Below are positions 53,912 to 64,000 of a stretch of 64,000 bases of DNA, piece after piece. The stretch covers positions 8,660,501-8,724,500 of the forward strand of contig NZ_CP095376.1 of assembly GCF_023008405.1 (NCBI RefSeq), read 5' to 3'. A model generated the notes under the pieces. That model did no database searches, was not told the origin of the DNA, and saw only the letters and a program-made list of their open reading frames with translations. A program made the position numbers and the translations under genes. This stretch comes from Amycolatopsis sp. FBCC-B4732. Its GTDB lineage: Bacteria > Actinomycetota > Actinomycetes > Mycobacteriales > Pseudonocardiaceae. The stretch's first letter is position 1. Each line of letters begins with the position of its first letter.

Positions 53912-54538
53912 ATGGGTGTCGCTGCTGACGAACGCCAGGCCTTGAGCTCCCTCCTCCACGACCTCGGGCCCGACGCGCCCACGTTGTGCGAAGGCTGGAC
54001 CACGCGGGATCTCGCCGCGCACCTCGTCGTGCGGGAACACCGCCCCGACGCCGCGCCCGGGATCATCGTTCCCGCGCTCGCCGGGCACACGCAAAAGGTG
54101 CAGGACCGCTACGCCGCCAAGCCCTGGGGCACCCTCGTCGACCAGGTGCGGAAGGGCCCGTCGAAGTTCTGGCCCACCGCCATCGGCCCCCTCGACGAGC
54201 TCACCAACACCGCCGAGTTCCTCGTCCACCACGAGGACGTCCGCCGCGCGCAGCCCGGCTGGGAACCGCGCCCGGCCGACGCCACCAGGGACGCCGCCGC
54301 GTGGAAGTCGGCCAAGCAGGCCGCCAAGCTCAACCTGCGCAAGGCGCCCGTGGGGGTCACCCTACGGACCCGCACCGGGCAGGAAGCCGCCGTCAAGACC
54401 GGGCCCGATCCCGTCGCCGTGATCGGCGACCCGATCGACCTGCTGCTCTTCGTGTTCGGCCGCGACGCCGTCCGCCTCGAGTTCGAAGGCGACGCGGCCG
54501 CCGTCACGAAGCTGCAGGGTGTGAACCGCGGACTCTGA
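53912..54538 (+). CDS. TIGR03085 family metal-binding (mycothiol-transferase-like) protein
   Basis: The ATG at 53912 gives 208 residues with a DinB-like four-helix start (ADERQALSSLLHDLGPDAPTLCEGWTTRDLAAHLVVREHRPDA) and HHEDVRRA, a His-containing metal site. This matches the actinobacterial TIGR03085 family, related to the mycothiol-dependent maleylpyruvate isomerase fold. It probably uses mycothiol. Its end overlaps the convergent membrane-protein gene by 35 bp. Confidence 0.85.
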   Translation: MGVAADERQALSSLLHDLGPDAPTLCEGWTTRDLAAHLVVREHRPDAAPGIIVPALAGHTQKVQDRYAAKPWGTLVDQVRKGPSKFWPTAIGPLDELTNTAEFLVHHEDVRRAQPGWEPRPADATRDAAAWKSAKQAAKLNLRKAPVGVTLRTRTGQEAAVKTGPDPVAVIGDPIDLLLFVFGRDAVRLEFEGDAAAVTKLQGVNRGL

Positions 54539-55196
54539 GCGTCACCCAGCGGCCCACCGGCAGCGTGACCACGATCGCGGCCAGCACCAGGTGCACGGCC
54601 ATGAACGCGACCGCGGCCGGCACGCTCGGCGGGCCGCCGAGGAACACGATCATGTGCGACGCCCACTTCAGCTCGGTCGGCTTCGTGCCCGCCGCCCAGA
54701 CGTCGTTGAGCGCCCAGAACGTCAGGTCGTTCACGCCCGAGATGACCACCAGGATCGACGCGATCCCGACCTTCAGCACGTTCGCCGTCCGGCCGCCGCC
54801 GAGGCGGTACGCGAGCAGTGCGAACAGCACGATGAACGTCGTCACGAACAGCTCGAACTGGTACACCGGCTGGAAGTCCTGGTCGGGCGAGCGCGCGAAC
54901 CCCTGCACCCGCATCACCAGCTCGGTGTCCAAATAGGACATGTACACGAACACGGCGAACACGATCAAGGCCGGCCCGAAGCGCCCGCGCGGGAACAGCG
55001 AAACCGTCAGCACCGCGAAGACGAACGGGCACAGCTTGAACGCCCAGTCGCCGACGTTGTCCAGCGTCTGGTCCGGCGGCAGCACCACCATGATCAGCAG
55101 CGCGGTGACCACCGCCGGCACGGCGGCGACCAGCCACAGCCACTGCCGCCGCCGGTACAGGGCGGCGACCAGGCCGGGCGATTCCAAGAGCGTCAC
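54504..55196 (-). CDS. integral membrane protein of the carbamoyltransferase operon
   Basis: The GTG at 55196 overlaps the carbamoyltransferase stop (GTGA) and gives 230 residues with about six hydrophobic helices (for example WLWLVAAVPAVVTALLIMVVL and TTFIVLFALLAYRL), with a polar loop after the second or third. No family was recognised. Coupling to the carbamoyltransferase suggests a role in placing or using the carbamoylated product at the membrane. Confidence 0.7.
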   Translation of the reverse strand: MTLLESPGLVAALYRRRQWLWLVAAVPAVVTALLIMVVLPPDQTLDNVGDWAFKLCPFVFAVLTVSLFPRGRFGPALIVFAVFVYMSYLDTELVMRVQGFARSPDQDFQPVYQFELFVTTFIVLFALLAYRLGGGRTANVLKVGIASILVVISGVNDLTFWALNDVWAAGTKPTELKWASHMIVFLGGPPSVPAAVAFMAVHLVLAAIVVTLPVGRWVTLRVRGSHPAAS

Positions 55197-56992
55197 AGTT
55201 CCTTCTCCACCCAGAACGGTCCGAGGGCCAGCGCGTCGACGTCGGTCTTCAGGTAGCACGCGATCGCGTCGGCCGGGCTGGCCACGATCGGCTCGTTGTT
55301 GTCGTTGAACGAGGTGTTGACGACCATCGGCACCCCGGTCAGCTTCTCGAACTCGCCGATCATCCGGTAGTACAGCGGGTTGTCGGTACGGCTCACAGTC
55401 TGCACCCGCGCGGTGCCGTCGACGTGCGTGATCGCCGGGACCTCGTCCCGCTTGTCCGGCAGGACGTCGAACACCAGCAGCATCACCGGGGACGGGTAGT
55501 CGCTGACGAAGTACTCGCCCGCCCGCTCCTCCAGGCACGAAGGTGCGAACGGCCGGAACGCCTCGCGGTGCTTCACCTTCTCGTTCATCCGCGTCTTGGA
55601 CTCCGGGTCGCGAGGGTCGGCGACGAGCGAGCGGTTGCCCAGTGCCCGCGGCCCGCACTCCATCCGGCCCTGCACCCAGCCGACGATCTTGCCGTCGGCC
55701 ACTTTCGCCGCGGTGTGCGCCGCGATGTCGTCGACGCGCTCGTACTCGACGCCGGCGTCCTGCAGCGCCAGCTCCATCTCGGCCTCGGTGTAGTCCGGCC
55801 CGGTGTAGGTGTAGCCGTCGCGCGGGCGCGGCTTGCCGTACTTGGCGACCGACACGTCGAGGGCCGCGCCGAGCGCGCACCCGTCGTCCGCCGCCGCGGG
55901 CTGGGCGAAGAAGTCCTCGAACGGCGTCTCCAGCAGGATCCGCCCGTTCATGACGCTGTTCAACGCGACCCCGCCGGCGACGCACAGCCGCTTCGAGCCC
56001 GTCTCGCGCTGCAGCCACCGCGCCAGGTGCAGGCCCGCTTCTTCGAGCGTCACCTGCAGGGCGTACGCGATGTCGCAGTAGTGCTGGGGAACGGGATTCT
56101 CGGCCGTGACGCGGGTTTTCGGCCGCGCGGGACCGAAGGCGTCGGTGAACTTCCGGGACATCACGTGCTTGCCGGTGCGGTGGTGGCCGAACCAGCTCAG
56201 GTCCAGCTCGAAGCCGCCGTCGTCGTCGAGGTGGATGAGCTGCTTGAACGCGTCGACGTAGGTGTCCTCGCCCAGCGGCGCGAGGCCCATGATCTTGCCT
56301 TCGTCGCGGGTCGGGTAGAAGCCGAGGTAGCCGGTGACGCCCGCGTACATCGCGCCGAGGGAGTGCGGGAACTTGATCCGCCGCAGGTCGACGATCTTGT
56401 TCCCGCGCCCGTGCGCGAGGTAGGTCGCCGTGCCGTCGCTGCCGATGCCGTCGAAGGTGAGCACCGCCGACTCGTCCCACGGCGAGATGAAGTAGCCGCT
56501 GGCCGCGTGCGCGCGGTGGTGGTCGACGAGGTGGGTCTTGAACTTCGTCGGCCCGGTCCAGCCGGCGGCCTCCTTGACGTCGTTCGCCAGCGTGTAGGAC
56601 CGCTTGATGTGCGCGAGGACCGCGCCGCCGACGTGGTAGTCGTCGTGTCCCTTGCCACCGCCGGTGAGGAAGGTGTCGACCATGCCCGCGGACTTGCCGC
56701 CCTCGTCGCCGTTGGTGTTGCGGAAGACGTCCAGGGTGCCGGGGAAGTACCGCGCGAACACCTTGGCCGCGTGGATGCCTTCCTTCCAGCGCTGCCAGTA
56801 GTAGGCCACGTGGTCGACGTCGGCGAGCGTGATCCCGGCCCGCTCCAGGCAGAACTTGATGGCCTCGGCGGGGAAGCCGCCGTCGTGCTTCACGCGGGTG
56901 AAGCGCTCCTCCTCGGCGAACGCGATGATCTCGCCGTCGCGCACGAGTGCCGCCGCCGAGTCGTGCACCCGGCTGATGCCCAGTACGTACAT
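55193..56992 (-). CDS. carbamoyltransferase (NodU/CmcH/TobZ family)
   Basis: The 599-residue protein has the N-terminal YrdC-unrelated ASKHA-type (Kae1-like) domain: MYVLGISRVHDSAAALVRDG, VAYYWQRW, HHRAHAASGYFISPWDESAVLTFDG, GGVALNSVMNGRIL, then the C-terminal domain with GPRALGNRSLVADPRD. Members transfer the carbamoyl group of carbamoyl phosphate to hydroxyls of sugars, antibiotics or Nod factors. Here the neighbours (GT2, flippase, ATP-grasp) suggest a sugar of a surface or exported glycan. The start is 16 bp after the flippase stop. Confidence 0.9.
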   Translation of the reverse strand: MYVLGISRVHDSAAALVRDGEIIAFAEEERFTRVKHDGGFPAEAIKFCLERAGITLADVDHVAYYWQRWKEGIHAAKVFARYFPGTLDVFRNTNGDEGGKSAGMVDTFLTGGGKGHDDYHVGGAVLAHIKRSYTLANDVKEAAGWTGPTKFKTHLVDHHRAHAASGYFISPWDESAVLTFDGIGSDGTATYLAHGRGNKIVDLRRIKFPHSLGAMYAGVTGYLGFYPTRDEGKIMGLAPLGEDTYVDAFKQLIHLDDDGGFELDLSWFGHHRTGKHVMSRKFTDAFGPARPKTRVTAENPVPQHYCDIAYALQVTLEEAGLHLARWLQRETGSKRLCVAGGVALNSVMNGRILLETPFEDFFAQPAAADDGCALGAALDVSVAKYGKPRPRDGYTYTGPDYTEAEMELALQDAGVEYERVDDIAAHTAAKVADGKIVGWVQGRMECGPRALGNRSLVADPRDPESKTRMNEKVKHREAFRPFAPSCLEERAGEYFVSDYPSPVMLLVFDVLPDKRDEVPAITHVDGTARVQTVSRTDNPLYYRMIGEFEKLTGVPMVVNTSFNDNNEPIVASPADAIACYLKTDVDALALGPFWVEKEL

Positions 56993-57008
56993 GATTTCTC
57001 CCAGTGGT

Positions 57009-58262
57009 TCAGAATCGGCGGACCAGGCGCCGCAGGACTGCCGCCTTCACCGCGAGCGCGAAGACGAGTGCGGCGAACCCGCCGACCGGCCCGAGGACGG
57101 GGACGAGCAGTGCCGCCGCGGCGGCGGTGGCGACGAGCGAGACGACGGCGGTGCCGGACGTCAGCGTCAGCACCTTGCTGTTGGTGTTTTCGATGAGGAA
57201 GCCCGCGTACAGCCCGGTCGCGTACAGCGCGGTCTCGACGAGCACGAGCAGCCCGAGGACGACGTACGCGTCCTCGGCCGTGAGCGAGGCGCGGGTCCCG
57301 GGGATGGCGAGACCCGCGCCGAGCAGGACGACCACCGCGATCCCGGCGCGTTCGACCAGCCGCAGCAGCGCGACCGCCCGCGCCCGCCCGGCCGCCGCGC
57401 CCGTGCCGCGCATCCGCCGCGACGCCGCCGGCTGGTGCAGCTTGAGCTGGTAGTACAGCAGCGAGCAGAACGCGCTCGACACCAGCAGCGCCAGGTAGAA
57501 CGGGCCGCTGTCGGTGGTCCGGCCGGACAGCGCGAGCACCGCGAACACGACCGACGTCGAGATGACGTCGAGCAGCTCGGTCAGGCCGAGCAGGACGGTG
57601 CTGCGGCCGAACGCGGGCAGCAGCCGGTGCCCCGGCACCCGGCCCCCGCGCAGCCACGGCCGGGGCAGCAGGGCGACCGAAGCGCCGAGGATGACGAGGA
57701 TCCCGCCCAGCAGCAACGCCAGGTGCGTCTCGGGTGGCCAGCCCACCGCCCACGTCACGCACGTCACGACGCCGACCACGACCGAGCCGGCGGCGAACGC
57801 CAAGGCGTCCAAAGTGGACTTGTCGCGCAGCCGGTGCAGGCCGGACACCGTCATCAGCAGCCCGCCGGAGATCGACCAGGCCGCCGCCGTCAGGTACAGC
57901 GCCGCGTCCGACCGCGGGGCCACCACCAGCGCGACGGCGGTCGCGGCCAGCACGGCCAGCACCGGCACCGCGGCCAGCCGGACCGCGAGCGCCGCGACGG
58001 CGTCCCGGGTCCGGTGCAGCCGCGGCAGGCTCTTCAACGCCGACTTCTCCGCCGCGGCCGGCACGAAGTTCAGCCAGGTCATCAGGCCGAGCGCGTTCGC
58101 GAAACGCCCGTAGTCGCGGGCGCCCCACGCCGTGATCAGGACCAGCCCCATCACCTGCACCGAAAGCCGGAACACGCCCCGGCCGGCGAGCAGGCGCAGC
58201 ACCACCGCCGGCCGCGGCGGCGCCACGGCCGGGGCGGTGCTGACCGAGGGAGGACCCGTCAC
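57009..58262 (-). CDS. flippase-like polysaccharide export protein
   Basis: The GTG at 58262 overlaps the ATP-grasp stop and gives 417 residues with about 12 hydrophobic segments. FRLSVQVMGLVLITAWGARDYGRFANALGLMTW is a typical Wzx/MVF N-terminus, and a long hydrophilic loop lies in the middle (KLHQPAASRRMRGTG). It probably moves the lipid-linked or soluble product of this operon across the membrane. Confidence 0.8.
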   Translation of the reverse strand: MTGPPSVSTAPAVAPPRPAVVLRLLAGRGVFRLSVQVMGLVLITAWGARDYGRFANALGLMTWLNFVPAAAEKSALKSLPRLHRTRDAVAALAVRLAAVPVLAVLAATAVALVVAPRSDAALYLTAAAWSISGGLLMTVSGLHRLRDKSTLDALAFAAGSVVVGVVTCVTWAVGWPPETHLALLLGGILVILGASVALLPRPWLRGGRVPGHRLLPAFGRSTVLLGLTELLDVISTSVVFAVLALSGRTTDSGPFYLALLVSSAFCSLLYYQLKLHQPAASRRMRGTGAAAGRARAVALLRLVERAGIAVVVLLGAGLAIPGTRASLTAEDAYVVLGLLVLVETALYATGLYAGFLIENTNSKVLTLTSGTAVVSLVATAAAAALLVPVLGPVGGFAALVFALAVKAAVLRRLVRRF

Positions 58263-59500
58263 GGCAGGGGTACCGCCATGTCCTGGTCGCTCAGCAGGAA
58301 CTTCAGCGTGCCGCGCACGGCGTTCTCCGCGGACAGCAGTTCCGGCACCGACCCGGCCGTGAGCACGACGTACCCGAGCTTGTGCCCGGCCTGCTCGTAG
58401 GGCCGGACGAACGAGCCCTCGTCGGCGAACAGGTGCAGGCCGACCAGCCCGGGCAGCGCGCGCACGTCCGCGACACCGTCCACCCGGGACAGGTGACCGC
58501 CGCGGTCGGACGCCAGGATGTGCACCAGCGTCGGCTTCGGCTGGTGCAGGTCCAGCCGCACCTCGTCGCCGGTGGCGGCGGCGATCCCGGCGCCGATCAG
58601 GTCGGCGCCGTGGCAGTGCGCGATCGCTTCCGCCAGCCCGTTGCCGCCCATCCGGGCGCCCATCTCGATGAGGTAGAGCCGCCCGTCCCGGCCGAGCACG
58701 GCGTCGAGCGTCAGCGGTCCCGTCCGGTAGCCGAGCTCGGTGCAGATCTGGTCGAGGGCTTCGATCAGGCTCAGCTCGACGTCGGCGGGCAGCTCGGCGG
58801 GCAGCAGGTGCGACGACGTCACGAAGAACGGCGGCGGCGTGAGCACCCGCTCGGTCACGGCGTGGAAGACGATTCGCCCGTCGACGACCAGCGCCTCGAT
58901 GGTGAAGTGCGAGCCGTCGAGGTGCTCCTCCACGACCAGGCGGCCGGACGGCGAGAACGCGAGCGACTCGGTGAACGCCCTGGTCAGCCGGCCCGGACCC
59001 GGGCAGGAGACGACCCCGCGGCTGCCCGAAGAGTCGACCGGCTTGACCAGCGTCGGGAAGCGCAGCTGCTGGGCGGCGTGGATGAGCTCCGGCCCCGGGC
59101 GGCCGTCGACGCTGCGGTAGCTCGGCAGGCCCAGGTGGTCGCACAGCGCGCGGAACACCGACTTGTCCGTCGACGCGGCCACCGCGTACTGCGGCAGCGG
59201 GTCCGGCATGCCCCAGTGGCGGGTCAGCCACGCCAGCGCCGGCAGGCCGACGTCGCTGGCCGGGCAGAGCACCCCCGCGAGGTCGCGGCGGCCCTCCAGC
59301 GCCGCCGCGATCTGCTCCGGTGCGCGCACGCTGACCTGCAGGAACTCGTCCGCGTACGCCACTGCCGGTGCGCCCGGCCGGACGTCGACGCAGATCGTGC
59401 GGAACCCCAGCTCCCGCGCCCGCTCGTAGGTGCTGACCGAACCGTCCGCGCCCCCCAGGATCACCAGGGTTCTCGCGGGGTCCTTCTTCGAACTCGTCAC
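58259..59500 (-). CDS. ATP-grasp ligase
   Basis: The GTG at 59500 overlaps the GT2 stop and gives 413 residues. It has the ATP-grasp layout: an N-terminal Rossmann-like lobe (TLVILGGADGSVSTYERARELG), then STDKSVFRALCDHLGLP, FPTLVKPVDSSGSRGVVSC (ATP-binding lysine and glycine loop), VVEEHLDGSHFTIEALVVDG and LYLIEMGARMGGNGLAE (metal-binding acidic site). The C-terminal part is like carbamoyl-phosphate-synthase-like ligases that activate a carboxylate to form an amide. In this operon it may couple an amino acid or carboxylic acid to an amine of a glycan precursor. Substrates unknown. Confidence 0.85.
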   Translation of the reverse strand: MTSSKKDPARTLVILGGADGSVSTYERARELGFRTICVDVRPGAPAVAYADEFLQVSVRAPEQIAAALEGRRDLAGVLCPASDVGLPALAWLTRHWGMPDPLPQYAVAASTDKSVFRALCDHLGLPSYRSVDGRPGPELIHAAQQLRFPTLVKPVDSSGSRGVVSCPGPGRLTRAFTESLAFSPSGRLVVEEHLDGSHFTIEALVVDGRIVFHAVTERVLTPPPFFVTSSHLLPAELPADVELSLIEALDQICTELGYRTGPLTLDAVLGRDGRLYLIEMGARMGGNGLAEAIAHCHGADLIGAGIAAATGDEVRLDLHQPKPTLVHILASDRGGHLSRVDGVADVRALPGLVGLHLFADEGSFVRPYEQAGHKLGYVVLTAGSVPELLSAENAVRGTLKFLLSDQDMAVPLP

Positions 59501-60507
59501 GCCGAAACGCCTTTCCCCAGGTGCACATCGATGAGCCGGGGACCCGCCGGGTCCGCCGGGGTGAAGAGCCGGTCCTCGGCGTCGACGACGACGTTCGCTT
59601 CCCGGATGTAGAACTGCCGCGGCCTCGGCTGGCCCGCGCCGACCACGACGAGGTAGCGCACGGTCAGCGACGCCACCAGCAGCAGCACCGCGAGCAGCGC
59701 GAACAGCAGCGTGGCCGTGACCCCCGCGCCGAGCAGGCCGAACGCCGCCGCGCCGCCGGCGAGCACCGCGATCCCCGCGGCCAGCAACGCCGTCGCGGAC
59801 GCCGCGGTCGTGAGCCGCCGGGTGAACCCGACGAAGAGTTCGATGGCGTGCGATGCCAGGAACCCGAAGCCCACTTTGGACTCGCCGCGCTCGCGGGCCC
59901 GGTGCGCGACCTGGACGCAGGTGTACCGGCTGGTCAGCCGGGGGACCGTGGCCAGGAAGTACGGCGTGCCGAGCCGCAGGTCGACGATCTTGCGGGCCAG
60001 TTCCGCGCGGACCAGCCGAAACGCCGTGGCGCCCGGCGGGATCTCGATCCGCAGGACGCGCCGGCCGAGGAAGTGGAACGCGGCGGTGCCCCACCGTCGC
60101 AGCCGCGGGTCCTGGCGGTTGGTGCGGACGCCGAAGACCGCGTCGTTGCCCAGCTCCGCCGCCGCGACGAGCTTCTCCGCTTCGGCGGCGGGGAACTGCT
60201 GGTCGGCGTCGACGTGCAGGATCCACGGTTGCGCCGCGTAGCGGTAGCCCGCCGAGAATGCGGCTTCGAAACCGAAGTTCCGAGAAAAGGACAAATACCG
60301 CACGCGCGGGTCGGCGGCCGCGAGTGCGCGGATCTTGTCCAGTGTTCCGTCGACGCTCCCGTCATCGACGTAAAACAATTCCAGTGAGTAGTGGCCTAGT
60401 TCGTTGGTTATTTCCCGATAGGACGGTTCGACGTTCTCGACTTCGTTGAAGCACGGAATGACTACGGTGAGTCCACTGTGGGCCGGCCCCGGGAAAGGGG
60501 TCGTCAT
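59497..60507 (-). CDS. membrane-bound GT2 glycosyltransferase (DPM1/ArnC-like)
   Basis: The 336-residue protein has LTVVIPCFNEVENVEPS, FYVDDGSVDGTLD, LSFSRNFGFEAAFSAGYRYA and HVDADQQFPAAE (DxD site), then two C-terminal hydrophobic helices (about 233-255 and 260-290). This is the layout of ArnC/GtrB-type polyprenyl-phosphate sugar transferases. It heads the five-gene minus operon. The DADQQ after VDAD is typical of the family. No ribosome-binding site was judged strong. Confidence 0.85.
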   Translation of the reverse strand: MTTPFPGPAHSGLTVVIPCFNEVENVEPSYREITNELGHYSLELFYVDDGSVDGTLDKIRALAAADPRVRYLSFSRNFGFEAAFSAGYRYAAQPWILHVDADQQFPAAEAEKLVAAAELGNDAVFGVRTNRQDPRLRRWGTAAFHFLGRRVLRIEIPPGATAFRLVRAELARKIVDLRLGTPYFLATVPRLTSRYTCVQVAHRARERGESKVGFGFLASHAIELFVGFTRRLTTAASATALLAAGIAVLAGGAAAFGLLGAGVTATLLFALLAVLLLVASLTVRYLVVVGAGQPRPRQFYIREANVVVDAEDRLFTPADPAGPRLIDVHLGKGVSA

Positions 60508-60780
60508 CTGTGCTGCTCAGGTACGTGTGTCGAATTCGTGTCCGCGCGGTCACCGACAGTGCGAATGGTGATCATGAATCCCCCAGCCGGATCCGATAAG
60601 GCCGCTTGCCGATTGCGGTGTGGCGGGAGTTATAAGCAGACGGATCGGTGAACGGCGACGGTACTTCGGCGAATTCCTCCGTTCAGACCCAGACCAAAGT
60701 AGTAACCCATCCGGCATTCGGGGTGACCTGGCGGCCAAGTCCTTCCCCGCGGGCCGGTCGGTGGCGCAGACTCCCCGGCC
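60508..60780. promoter_or_regulatory. divergent promoter region of the two glycan operons
   Basis: This 273-bp region is the least GC-rich of its surroundings and separates the two divergent operons. On the plus strand TTGCCG (60606-60611) and TTATAA (60630-60635) with an 18-bp spacer form the most sigma70-like promoter seen in the window. No gene was recognised in it. Confidence 0.45.
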
Positions 60781-61539
60781 ATGTGGAATCTGGGGGCGGG
60801 GGTCGTGTGGCGCGCTGCCTACGCGCGGGCGGTGCGCTCGGCGTTCGCGACGGTGCCGTTCTACCGCGAGCGCTGGGCGCTCGACGGCCGGGAGGACCCG
60901 GTCGTGGTGCCCGGGCGCACCGGGACGAACGGCGGCGCGGTACCCCTCGCGGAAGCGGTGCACAAACTGGTCGACCTCGTCCCGCTCGCCGGCGGCGCCC
61001 GGCGGCCCGAGCCGGCGCGCGGGCTCGGGCGGGTGCTGCGGACGGCTCGCCGGCCGGACCCCGGCAGCCTGGTCGTGGTGCTCGGACCCGACGACCTGCG
61101 GCCGCCGTCGGACCTGCCGAAGGGGGTGCGGGGCTGCGTCGCCGATCCGGACGCGCCGAGCGCCTCGGTGCTGCGCGAAGTCGCGGCCGTGCTGGACCGC
61201 GGGCGCCGCGTGCTCGCCGTCGGTGACGACAAGGCGATCGCGGCGTTCGCCGAGGACCACCGCGTCGAGGCCGTGCCGCACCGCGAACTCGATTCGCTGG
61301 ACGCCGGCCCGTACGGCGTGCTGCACGACCCGGTGCTCGGGTACCTCGGCGCCTTGGGCGACTGCGGGCGGTGGCACCTCGACTGGCCGCACGTCTACGC
61401 GCGCCCGACCGCCGCCGGGCTCGCGTTCACGTTGCTGCGCCAGGCTTCCCCGCGGTTCGTCGACGTCGTCCCGGCCGGCGGGGTGCGCGGCGAGATCGCG
61501 TTCTGCCCCCGGCACGGCACCCCGGTCGTCCTGGCATGA
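60781..61539 (+). CDS. unrecognised protein, possibly a degenerate adenylation-enzyme relative
   Basis: The 252-residue product begins MWNLGAGVVWRAAYARAVRSAFATVPFYRERWALDG. The N-terminal pattern AYARAV--AFATVPFYRERW resembles the start of PaaK/CapK-type acyl-adenylating enzymes, and the C-terminal HDPVLGYLGALGDCGRWHLDWPHVYAR could match a later part. The conserved nucleotide-binding core (YGSTE-type motifs) is missing and the protein is short, so it is not expected to adenylate substrates. It heads the plus operon and overlaps the first FemAB-like gene (ATGA). Confidence 0.55.
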   Translation: MWNLGAGVVWRAAYARAVRSAFATVPFYRERWALDGREDPVVVPGRTGTNGGAVPLAEAVHKLVDLVPLAGGARRPEPARGLGRVLRTARRPDPGSLVVVLGPDDLRPPSDLPKGVRGCVADPDAPSASVLREVAAVLDRGRRVLAVGDDKAIAAFAEDHRVEAVPHRELDSLDAGPYGVLHDPVLGYLGALGDCGRWHLDWPHVYARPTAAGLAFTLLRQASPRFVDVVPAGGVRGEIAFCPRHGTPVVLA

Positions 61540-62567
61540 GGTTCACGTTCCACGACCCCCGCGCCGACCCGGCGCCCGCGGGGTGGGCGGAGTTTTCGCG
61601 GGCCGCCCGGCTGCACCCGGTGTGGGACTACGGCGTGATGGGTCTCGAAGCCTGGGGTGCCCGCAACCCGCAGCTGCTGGTCGTCGCGGCCGACGGCGAC
61701 GCGCTCGTCGCCGCGGTGTCCGTGCTGGTCTGCCGTCCCCGGCTGGCCCCGCGGTTCGCGCCGCGGCCCGGGAAGCGCTTGCTGCGGCCGTTCTGGGCCG
61801 AGGTCTGCCAGCCGTGGCTCAGCGGCTACCCCGGGATCGCGTTCGCGCCCGGGGTGCGCGACCACGCGGCGCTGGTGCGGGAGTTCGAGCGGGAGCTGGG
61901 CCGCCACCTCGGGCCGGGCCTGCTCGGTGTCGTCCACCGCGCGCTCGGCGAGGAGCTCGCCACCGGCCTCGCCGGCCGCGGCCGGCTCGTCAAGCGCGTG
62001 GATCCGGTGGCGGTGCTGGAGAACCGGTTCGAGTCCGAGGAGGACTGGATCGCGTCGCTGTCGAAGTCGCGGCGGGCGGGGCTGCGGCGGCAGCGGCGCC
62101 GGCTCGCCGAAGACCCGTCGCTGGTGATCCGCGGCGGCGCGGGGCGCACCGACCTCGACGGCGCCGAGCTGGCCGGGTTGATCCAGGCGCACCGCGAGCG
62201 GTACGGGCGGCTGGCGCTGGACACCCGCACGCCGCCGTCGGCGGGGTTCCTCGACCGGTTCGTCCGGCGGCCGGACGTGCACACCCTGACTTACACCGGC
62301 ACCGGCGGGCAGCTGCTCGCCGTACAGACCATGCTCGACCACCCGGACACCCCCGTCCTGCAGCACTGGGCGGCGCTGCCGCCGGCCGCGGGCGGGAAGA
62401 AGTGGCTGTACTTCGACTCCTACGTGCGCGCGGTGCGCTTCACCGCGAAGCGCGGCGCCCGGGAGCTGTCCGCGGGGCGCGGCATGATCGAGCTGAAGCA
62501 GGAGCTGGGGTTCCGGCCCCGGCCGGTCTACACGGCCGCCGTGCCGAGGCCGGTGCTGGGCCGGTGA
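61536..62567 (+). CDS. GNAT/FemAB-like transferase, paralogue 1
   Basis: The 343-residue product has two GNAT-like lobes, as in FemAB-type aminoacyltransferases: an N-terminal lobe (HDPRADPAPAGWAEFSRAARLHPVWDYGVM, VAAVSVLVCRPR) and a second lobe (LIQAHRERYGRLALDTRT, QTMLDHPDTPVLQHWAALPPAAGGKKWLYFDS). The basic helix ASLSKSRRAGLRRQRRRL (about residues 173-190) is the place where acyl-donor phosphates usually bind. FemAB proteins add amino acids from aminoacyl-tRNA to lipid-linked precursors; GNAT relatives use acyl-CoA. It overlaps both neighbouring genes. Confidence 0.7.
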   Translation: MRFTFHDPRADPAPAGWAEFSRAARLHPVWDYGVMGLEAWGARNPQLLVVAADGDALVAAVSVLVCRPRLAPRFAPRPGKRLLRPFWAEVCQPWLSGYPGIAFAPGVRDHAALVREFERELGRHLGPGLLGVVHRALGEELATGLAGRGRLVKRVDPVAVLENRFESEEDWIASLSKSRRAGLRRQRRRLAEDPSLVIRGGAGRTDLDGAELAGLIQAHRERYGRLALDTRTPPSAGFLDRFVRRPDVHTLTYTGTGGQLLAVQTMLDHPDTPVLQHWAALPPAAGGKKWLYFDSYVRAVRFTAKRGARELSAGRGMIELKQELGFRPRPVYTAAVPRPVLGR

Positions 62568-63622
62568 AGACCGTGACCGCGGTGTCGCGGGTGGACGTCC
62601 ACGACCCCCGCACCGATCCGCCGCCGGAGGGCTGGGCCGCGTTCCGGGCCCGGTGCCTGCCGCCGGTGTGGGACTACGAGCTGCTGCGCCGCGAGGCGTG
62701 GCTGGCGAAGAACCCGCCGGTGCTCGCCGTCGTCCGCCAGGGCTCGCTCGTCGTCGGCGCGTTGTCGGTGATGGTGTGCCGGGGCTGGGGCGCCGGCAAG
62801 TTCGGCCCGCTCTCCGGTGGCCGGTTCCGGCCGCGCTGGGCCGAGGTCTACCTCCCGCTGCTGAGCGGCTATCCGGCGTGCGTCTTCGACGACGACTTCA
62901 CCGACCGGCGCACCGCGATCCGCCAGTTCGAACGCGCATTGCGTGAGTACGTCGGCCCCGGCCTGCTCGGCGTCGTCTACCGGGCGATGAACCCGGAGCT
63001 GGTGCCCGCGCTGGCGGGCCGGGCCCGGATCAGCCGCGAGATCGACCCGGCCGCCGTGCTCGTCAACCGCTATTCCACTGTGGACGAATGGGCGGCGGCG
63101 CTCGCGCCGGACGTCCGCGGGTACCTGGACCCGGACGTCGCCACCGAAGCGGCGGCCGGGCGCACCGACCTCGATCCGCACGAGCTGGCCGTGCTGCTCA
63201 ATGCCCACCGCGCGCGGCAGGACGACCGCGCGTGGGCCGGCGGCCAGCGTTCCCGCGTCGGCGGGCTGCACCTGGACACCCGCAGCCCGATCGCGCCGGC
63301 CTACCTCGACGCGCTCGTCCGGCGTCCGGACGTCGTGACCCGGACCTACCGGGCCGCGGACGGCAAGTTGCTCGGCTTCAACACGATGATCGACCAGGAC
63401 CGCGGGTGCGCGGTCCACCACTGGGCCGCGCTGCCGAGCGCGGAAGGCGGCCGGAAGGGTCTCTATGTCGACTGCTACGCCCGCTGCGTGGCCCACATGA
63501 TCGCCTCAGGACGGCCGGAGCTGACCGCCGGCCGCGCGATGCTGCCGGAGAAGGAGGCGCTGGGCTTCGGCACGCGAAGCCTCTTCTCGGTGGCGGTCCC
63601 GAGGCCGGTGCTGGGCCGATGA
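62564..63622 (+). CDS. GNAT/FemAB-like transferase, paralogue 2
   Basis: The 352-residue protein starts at GTG 62564, overlapping the previous stop, and is a clear paralogue of its upstream neighbour: HDPRTDPPPEGWAAFRARCLPPVWDYELL at the start and the same end AVPRPVLGR. The basic RRAGLRRQRRRL stretch of paralogue 1 is replaced by APDVRGYLDPDVATEAAAG, and an extra loop (RAWAGGQRSRVGG) is present. It may therefore use a different donor or be a non-catalytic partner. Overlap with the next gene is ATGA. Confidence 0.7.
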   Translation: MKTVTAVSRVDVHDPRTDPPPEGWAAFRARCLPPVWDYELLRREAWLAKNPPVLAVVRQGSLVVGALSVMVCRGWGAGKFGPLSGGRFRPRWAEVYLPLLSGYPACVFDDDFTDRRTAIRQFERALREYVGPGLLGVVYRAMNPELVPALAGRARISREIDPAAVLVNRYSTVDEWAAALAPDVRGYLDPDVATEAAAGRTDLDPHELAVLLNAHRARQDDRAWAGGQRSRVGGLHLDTRSPIAPAYLDALVRRPDVVTRTYRAADGKLLGFNTMIDQDRGCAVHHWAALPSAEGGRKGLYVDCYARCVAHMIASGRPELTAGRAMLPEKEALGFGTRSLFSVAVPRPVLGR

Positions 63623-64000
63623 CCTGGACCGTCCGGGTGCTCGACCCGCGCACCGATCCCGAACCCGCCGGCTGGGCCGCGTTCCTCGAAGCCCAGCAAG
63701 CCCCGCTGACCTGGGACTACGGCTTGCTGTGCACGGAGTCGCGGCCGTCGCGCAGCCCGTACCTGCTCACCGTCGTCAGCGACGGCGACGAGCTCGTCGC
63801 CGCGGTGCTCGCGATGGTCTGCCACCCCGGCGGCGCGGCCGAGCCCGGCGCGGTCGGCGGTGTCGCGCGGTGGACGCCGCGCTGGCTGGAGGTCCAGCAC
63901 GCCTGGCTGTCGTGCTACCCGGCGTGGCTGTTCGCCGAAGCGCTCGACGCCGCCGCGTGCCGCGAAATCCTGCGCCGGTTCGAACGCGCCGCCTGCCGGC
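63619..64000 (+). CDS. GNAT/FemAB-like transferase, paralogue 3 (cut by window end)
   Basis: The ATG at 63619 overlaps the previous stop. The visible 127 residues begin MTWTVRVLDPRTDPEPAGWAAF and go on with LTWDYGLL and WLEVQHAWLSCYPAWLF, matching the first lobe of the two upstream paralogues. The 3' end lies outside the window, so the length, the second lobe and the state of the basic motif cannot be judged. Confidence 0.7.
   Translation, partial: MTWTVRVLDPRTDPEPAGWAAFLEAQQAPLTWDYGLLCTESRPSRSPYLLTVVSDGDELVAAVLAMVCHPGGAAEPGAVGGVARWTPRWLEVQHAWLSCYPAWLFAEALDAAACREILRRFERAACR

Follow-up and report, generated by a model that had tools for sequence, protein, structure and literature searches.

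At one end of a 64,000-nucleotide window of Amycolatopsis sp. FBCC-B4732 (positions 8660501-8724500 in a genome made up of one 10.19-Mb contig), ten genes lie in two divergent operons around a gap of 273 bp, the plus-strand operon reading on past the end of the window. We assign a probability of roughly one half to the reading that these genes encode a single pathway, the product of which would be a peptide-bearing, carbamoylated, lipid-linked sugar. In this pathway a family 2 glycosyltransferase (GT2), working on the inner side of the membrane, would load polyprenyl phosphate with a sugar taken from a nucleotide, and an ATP-grasp ligase would form the first amide, joining the sugar to an amino acid. 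Further residues would be added from charged transfer RNAs (tRNAs) by the FemAB-like protein p5 and then by p2 to p4, with p1 as a non-catalytic partner. A carbamoyltransferase would place a carbamoyl group onto a hydroxyl, a polytopic membrane protein would carry the product across the membrane, and an acceptor, perhaps at the cell surface, may then receive it through a small membrane protein, memb, or through an enzyme from another part of the genome. The evidence shows the gene unit and its co-inheritance, the families of the GT2, the ATP-grasp protein and the carbamoyltransferase, the predicted folds of p1 and p2, and fusions of GT2 with ATP-grasp; the substrates, sequence of steps, use of tRNA, export and last acceptor are inferred.

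Gene organization and co-inheritance

The five minus-strand genes are joined by GTGA overlaps at three of four junctions and by a 16-bp gap at the remaining one, while the five plus-strand genes, p1 to p5, overlap by 4 bp (ATGA or GTGA) at all four. At 62.6% G+C, the gap between the operons is poorer in these bases than the operons themselves (71.1% and 75.4%). An earlier note, made from the letters of the window, had described two divergent operons sharing an AT-richer 273-bp region, with all plus-strand genes overlapping and the operon continuing past position 64000; genes, coordinates and composition agree with that description, and reading further revealed the end of p4 and an additional gene, p5.

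Used as the query against 84,980 species genomes, in a scan that relied on two peptide patterns and may miss remote relatives, the p1 alignment found 37 loci (given L numbers here). Thirty-six carry the names of genera of the Pseudonocardiaceae, and one (L103) is from a bin named only Actinomycetes. The p1 proteins of the window and of A. eburnea share 95% identity, and the nearest named loci are from Amycolatopsis. By tblastn of the ten proteins, 27 of the 37 loci are of a type with the carbamoyltransferase (type A: Amycolatopsis, Saccharomonospora, Prauserella, Goodfellowiella, Actinophytocola, one Actinokineospora and bin L103), nine are of a type without it (type B: eight Actinokineospora and one Labedaea), and one, L117 of Actinophytocola xinjiangensis, is partial. 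The complete minus-strand gene order, with no insertion, is kept in 24 of the 27 type A loci; the exceptions are L112, from which the polytopic gene is missing, and two loci with a second ATP-grasp gene, L113 and L125, in which an ATP-grasp gene lies outside memb. The memb gene itself was found in 36 of the 37.

Of 80 Amycolatopsis genomes, 31 contain p1, and exactly these 31 also contain the polytopic protein (E <=1e-8) and the carbamoyltransferase (E <=1e-250); the other 49 genomes have none of the three at the cut-offs used. These genomes are related by descent, and such co-occurrence counts are not independent events. Because the same 31 genomes hold one plus-strand and two minus-strand genes, a chance neighborhood of the two operons is ruled out, and the proposal that they form one system, which the earlier note would have abandoned had they occurred independently, is upheld in this genus. 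There the ten genes seem to be inherited whole or not at all; partial copies occur elsewhere, as L117 and as a lone FemAB-like gene in Labedaea (L087). A class-wide sample, in which six candidates were scored per genome and remote relatives may be missed, had p1 in two of 394 genomes, both Pseudonocardiaceae. Among 120 genomes of the family, the 16 with FemAB-like matches (E <=1e-5) are the same 16 that match the ATP-grasp protein at E 2.3e-71 or better, the next genome scoring 1.9e-34, with the ATP-grasp cut set after this gap was seen.

The ratio of nonsynonymous to synonymous substitution rates (dN/dS), computed for the window with a custom Nei-Gojobori script, was 0.056-0.230 for the ten genes against A. 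eburnea, with values of 0.097-0.330 for ten genes against a second Amycolatopsis and 0.131-0.400 for nine genes against A. azurea. Since so many loci share the type A layout, most with the full minus-strand order, and dN/dS stays at 0.06 to 0.40, the layout appears to be more than chance. About ten different sets of neighboring genes, each specific to a clade, flank the type A loci, and the edges are mostly constant at memb and at the last FemAB-like gene; A. palatopharyngis (L105) has two downstream genes in common with the A. orientalis group. Genes of loci and flanks were called by a simple custom caller that sometimes merged or shortened them.

Sugar transfer, ligation and carbamoylation

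The GT2 gene (59497..60507, minus strand; 336 residues) matches Glycos_transf_2, and seven of the nine PDB sequences closest to it are sll0501 (which we take to be GtrB), ArnC or DPMS. By simple hydropathy it ends in two hydrophobic segments, residues 232-265 and 266-293, presumably comparable to the C-terminal membrane segments of ArnC and GtrB. These relatives and the two end segments make it likely that the enzyme produces a polyprenyl-phosphate sugar. The adjacent gene (58259..59500, minus strand; 413 residues) matches both ATP-grasp_4 and LAL_C2, the L-amino-acid-ligase C-terminal domain, above cut-off, and its PDB matches include the L-amino acid ligase BL00235; the protein is a predicted enzyme of the L-amino-acid-ligase type. 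The carbamoyltransferase (55193..56992, minus strand; 599 residues), of the NodU/TobZ/GdmN/NovN type of O-carbamoyltransferase, matches both Carbam_trans_N and Carbam_trans_C, and has NovN, GdmN and TobZ as PDB relatives; other copies within this locus type are 76-98% identical to that of the window. Its likeness to these enzymes extends to both domains and most of its length; its locus context is what differs. The nearest solved relatives of the GT2, the domain matches of the ligase and the alignment of the third enzyme with antibiotic O-carbamoyltransferases bear out what the earlier note had read in these genes, namely sugar transfer to a lipid, an ATP-grasp enzyme and a carbamoyltransferase.

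In eight Amycolatopsis loci (L095-L101 and L120), GT2 and ATP-grasp are a single open reading frame of 744 residues (L099:7485-9728, minus strand), and they are likewise a single frame in a type B locus of Actinokineospora spheciospongiae (L081:5591-7873, minus strand). Found as they are in different locus types, the two fusions look independent, and fusion in two lineages argues that the ligase would work on the sugar or sugar-lipid handled by the GT2, whether before or after the GT2 step.

FemAB-like proteins and p1

The plus operon encodes four FemAB-like proteins, all on the plus strand: p2 (61536..62567; 343 residues), p3 (62564..63622; 352 residues, no Pfam match), p4 (63619..64662, beyond the window from 64000; L009:9620-10663; 347 residues) and p5, outside the window (64659-65678 by extrapolation; L009:10660-11679; 339 residues). 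A count of three tandem genes, as first proposed, is ruled out by p5, the fourth, which starts at 64659. Each locus has two to four such enzymes; p5 is always present unless the contig stops short of it, and some species naturally lack p2, p3 or p4.

The predicted model of p2 has a double-GNAT fold like that of FemX, and is closest to FemX and FemA. Its 22 best VIA rows are all aminoacyl-tRNA-type chains, with the first coenzyme A (CoA) enzyme following after a drop of 2.4 Z units. The predicted fold therefore aligns best with aminoacyl-tRNA-dependent transferases, and the FemAB-like label, given earlier without a structure, survives this check for p2. A basic tRNA-binding helix on the second GNAT domain is a feature of FemABX proteins according to the review PMC12945691. 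The mean net charge of the corresponding helix is +5.8 in p2, +5.6 in p4, +4.2 in p5 and +4.9 in a divergent type B group. Among 117 FemAB-like sequences, Lys321 is invariant and Trp278 is present in 113 (compare DhpH-C Trp284); Lys321 falls near the place of FemX Lys305 and DhpH-C Lys329, as judged by VIA end points rather than by residue-by-residue superposition. In p3 and its orthologs the lysine is invariant though the basic helix is absent. The 117 were retained from 121 for these counts and for a quick tree that carries a long-branch warning; three partial sequences or sequences cut by locus ends were dropped, as was that of L119, which ran past its natural stop.

Profile searches place the family less readily. 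In Pfam, p2 and p4 exceed the cut-off with a single family, the GNAT domain Acetyltransf_6. None of 35 members matched PF02388 (FemAB); at E <=0.001, 14 of the 35 matched Acetyltransf_6, five matched FemAB_like (PF04339) and no other family was hit. NCBIfam gave no match to any of the 35, a PDB profile search with the FemAB-like alignment gave none at E up to 1, and a scan of viral contigs with p2 found no relative.

The first plus-strand gene, p1 (60781..61539; 252 residues), went unrecognized in the earlier note. The overall fold of its predicted model is that of a PaaK-type AMP ligase, which rules out p1 as another FemAB-like protein, and it has invariant Cys/His pairs. Compared with this type the protein is truncated: the alignment covers the AjiA1 chain (430 residues) only as far as residue 319, and there is no complete chain with the C-terminal domain. 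A TSGTTG-like stretch, which we take to be the ATP-binding loop of PaaK-type ligases, occurs in 0 of 39 p1 rows. A PDB profile search with the p1 alignment reached a best E of 0.039, to TAL effectors and other unrelated chains, and Pfam and NCBIfam scans gave nothing convincing.

Membrane proteins

Hydrophobic segments were taken from a simple hydropathy count, which also flags one segment in p2, a protein expected to be soluble. By this count the polytopic protein, the proposed exporter or flippase (57009..58262, minus strand; 417 residues), has eight segments and memb (54504..55196, minus strand; 230 residues) about seven. The flippase label has no family match behind it: Pfam and a PDB profile search gave none, NCBIfam nothing convincing, no flippase family appeared at E up to 1 in Pfam searches of 11 members, and the label rests on hydropathy. 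Compared by hhalign with PF13440 proteins, a crude comparison set, it scored E 0.013 with a first alignment and 0.16, in another register, with a deeper one; the first alignment scored 0.46 to 0.68 against memb, FemAB and MurJ sets. The comparison proteins were stop-to-stop cuts picked by composition, and two of twelve, in which the frame seemed wrong, were dropped in the second run. For memb, a weak UPF0542 match in five of 12 members (best E 0.0049) was seen, with nothing convincing in Pfam or NCBIfam.

Alternative explanations

Several observations weigh against a pathway to a lipid-linked, peptide-bearing sugar. The locus contains no recognizable enzyme to pass the sugar to a final acceptor. 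The polytopic protein, a putative flippase, lacks family support for that role, and the type A locus L112 is without it. Fold similarity gives no proof of a tRNA donor; the 22 VIA rows of p2 represent few distinct proteins, and Foldseek ranks CoA-type tandem GNATs 6 and 11-14, amid FemX and MprF rows, but with lower TM-scores. The helix of p3 is not basic (mean net charge -1.0), and p3 may be a changed or inactive transferase; some p5 proteins also have little basic helix (minimum 0). In one strain, Actinophytocola xinjiangensis, nonribosomal peptide synthetase (NRPS) neighbors fit a secreted metabolite, and together with MbtH and aspartate-decarboxylase neighbors they weaken a purely surface-glycan reading.

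The main competitor, though unlikely, is an antibiotic of the streptothricin and BD-12 kind, a peptidyl amino sugar that would be soluble and secreted, with the GT2 glycosylating a soluble core. The sugar of streptothricin is carbamoylated. Streptothrisamine is extended by a FemX-type aminoacyl-tRNA enzyme, a Fem-like protein that takes glycine from tRNA (Orf11, Sba18, Sbb17), according to the review PMC12945691, an extension resembling that predicted here; a single Fem-like enzyme is described there, as against two to four per locus here. Against a soluble antibiotic stand the GT2 itself, with its two hydrophobic end segments and lipid-phosphate relatives, the two membrane proteins in the core of the locus, and the lack of any obvious core-building, resistance or regulator gene within the conserved edges. 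None of the ten genes is recognizably core-building or NRPS, and among the flanks examined NRPS genes adjoin loci of one strain only.

An improbable alternative is that the FemAB-like proteins are CoA-dependent acyltransferases of the usual GNAT kind, in which case the product would be a glycolipid bearing acyl and carbamoyl groups but no peptide. The Acetyltransf_6 matches, the Foldseek ranks and the helix of p3 would suit such enzymes, but the VIA ordering, the invariant lysine with the basic helix of the other groups, and an amino-acid-ligase-type ATP-grasp protein in the same locus all favor aminoacyl transfer. Least credible is peptidoglycan modification, in which these proteins would equip lipid II with an interpeptide bridge, as happens in Staphylococcus, where FemX, FemA and FemB act serially: p2 is closest in fold to FemX and FemA, but p1 is missing at cut-off from 49 of 80 Amycolatopsis genomes, which would be odd for a wall cross-link, the FemAB-like genes are accompanied by GT2 and ATP-grasp genes and in most loci by a carbamoyltransferase gene, and the genome has two MurJ matches outside the locus.

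Arn-type and Pgf-type decoration (ArnC/ArnT, PgfS) uses the same GT2 class, and type B loci share an epimerase with it; in contrast, no acceptor transferase is recognized here, and the ATP-grasp, FemAB-like array and carbamoyltransferase are extra. FemXAB of lipid II shares the double-GNAT fold and, as proposed here, several enzymes in series, whereas the present proteins are accessory, tied to their own GT2 and ATP-grasp, and without a PF02388 match. A literature search, with thin coverage of subscription journals and preprints, returned no title or abstract start describing the locus, and text searches of the literature alone found no characterized cluster with the same gene order. The families are known; their combination and co-inheritance are, as far as searched, undescribed.

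More tentatively, and with the odds somewhat against it, the pathway may follow a second lipid-II-like logic: a polyprenyl-phosphate monosaccharide would carry its own short peptide, the first residue set by the ATP-grasp enzyme and two to four more following, each from its own tRNA-reading FemAB enzyme, before carbamoylation and export, so that gain and loss of FemAB genes among species would tune peptide length. If true, lipid-linked sugar decoration, tRNA-dependent peptide making and antibiotic-type carbamoylation would be joined in one small, well-bounded locus of antibiotic producers. The FemAB-like enzymes would be individually testable for their amino acids, with species lacking p2, p3 or p4 as ready comparisons, and the truncated PaaK-type proteins would gain a role.

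Variant loci and neighboring sequences

In type B loci a sugar epimerase/dehydratase adjoins the GT2 in nine of nine cases, and a SnoaL-like protein, a second p1-like protein and a divergent FemAB-like protein are each found in eight. Also in eight of the nine is a paired-cysteine protein that by eye resembles a zinc ribbon; this protein (L086:9920-10834 and L081:10613-11398, both plus strand) adjoins the second p1-like protein, and the L086 copy has no Pfam match. Actinokineospora spheciospongiae holds both L112, type A without the polytopic gene, and L124, type B with it; with one strain carrying both, an exporter could be shared between them. In Labedaea rhizosphaerae a separate FemAB-like gene (L087:7405-8732, plus strand) has p3-like fragments ahead of it.

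In A. xinjiangensis, FemAB-like and p1 genes lie near NRPS genes (L084:2-9272 and L083:12404-19901). Alongside one locus lie MbtH, an NRPS and a gene that clustering relates to aspartate decarboxylase; a second has NRPS domains, MbtH, an ABC transporter, a remote ATP-grasp (25% identical) and an aspartate decarboxylase beside p1 and one FemAB-like gene. The adjacency of the decarboxylase to the remote ATP-grasp, p1 and the FemAB-like gene hints at beta-alanine as a possible ligase substrate in this strain.

The gap between the operons (60508..60780) is a candidate shared divergent promoter region. A core, GTTATARGCA, and other blocks are conserved across ten Amycolatopsis; a TCATGARTCCCC-like block common to the ten gaps is, with GTTATARGCA, a candidate promoter or operator site. 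A tRNA scan of six loci called a tRNA-Phe in L077, probably false and overlapping the polytopic gene, and a tRNA-Pro gene (L009:14638-14712, minus strand; about 68637-68711 in window numbering) roughly 3 kb beyond p5.
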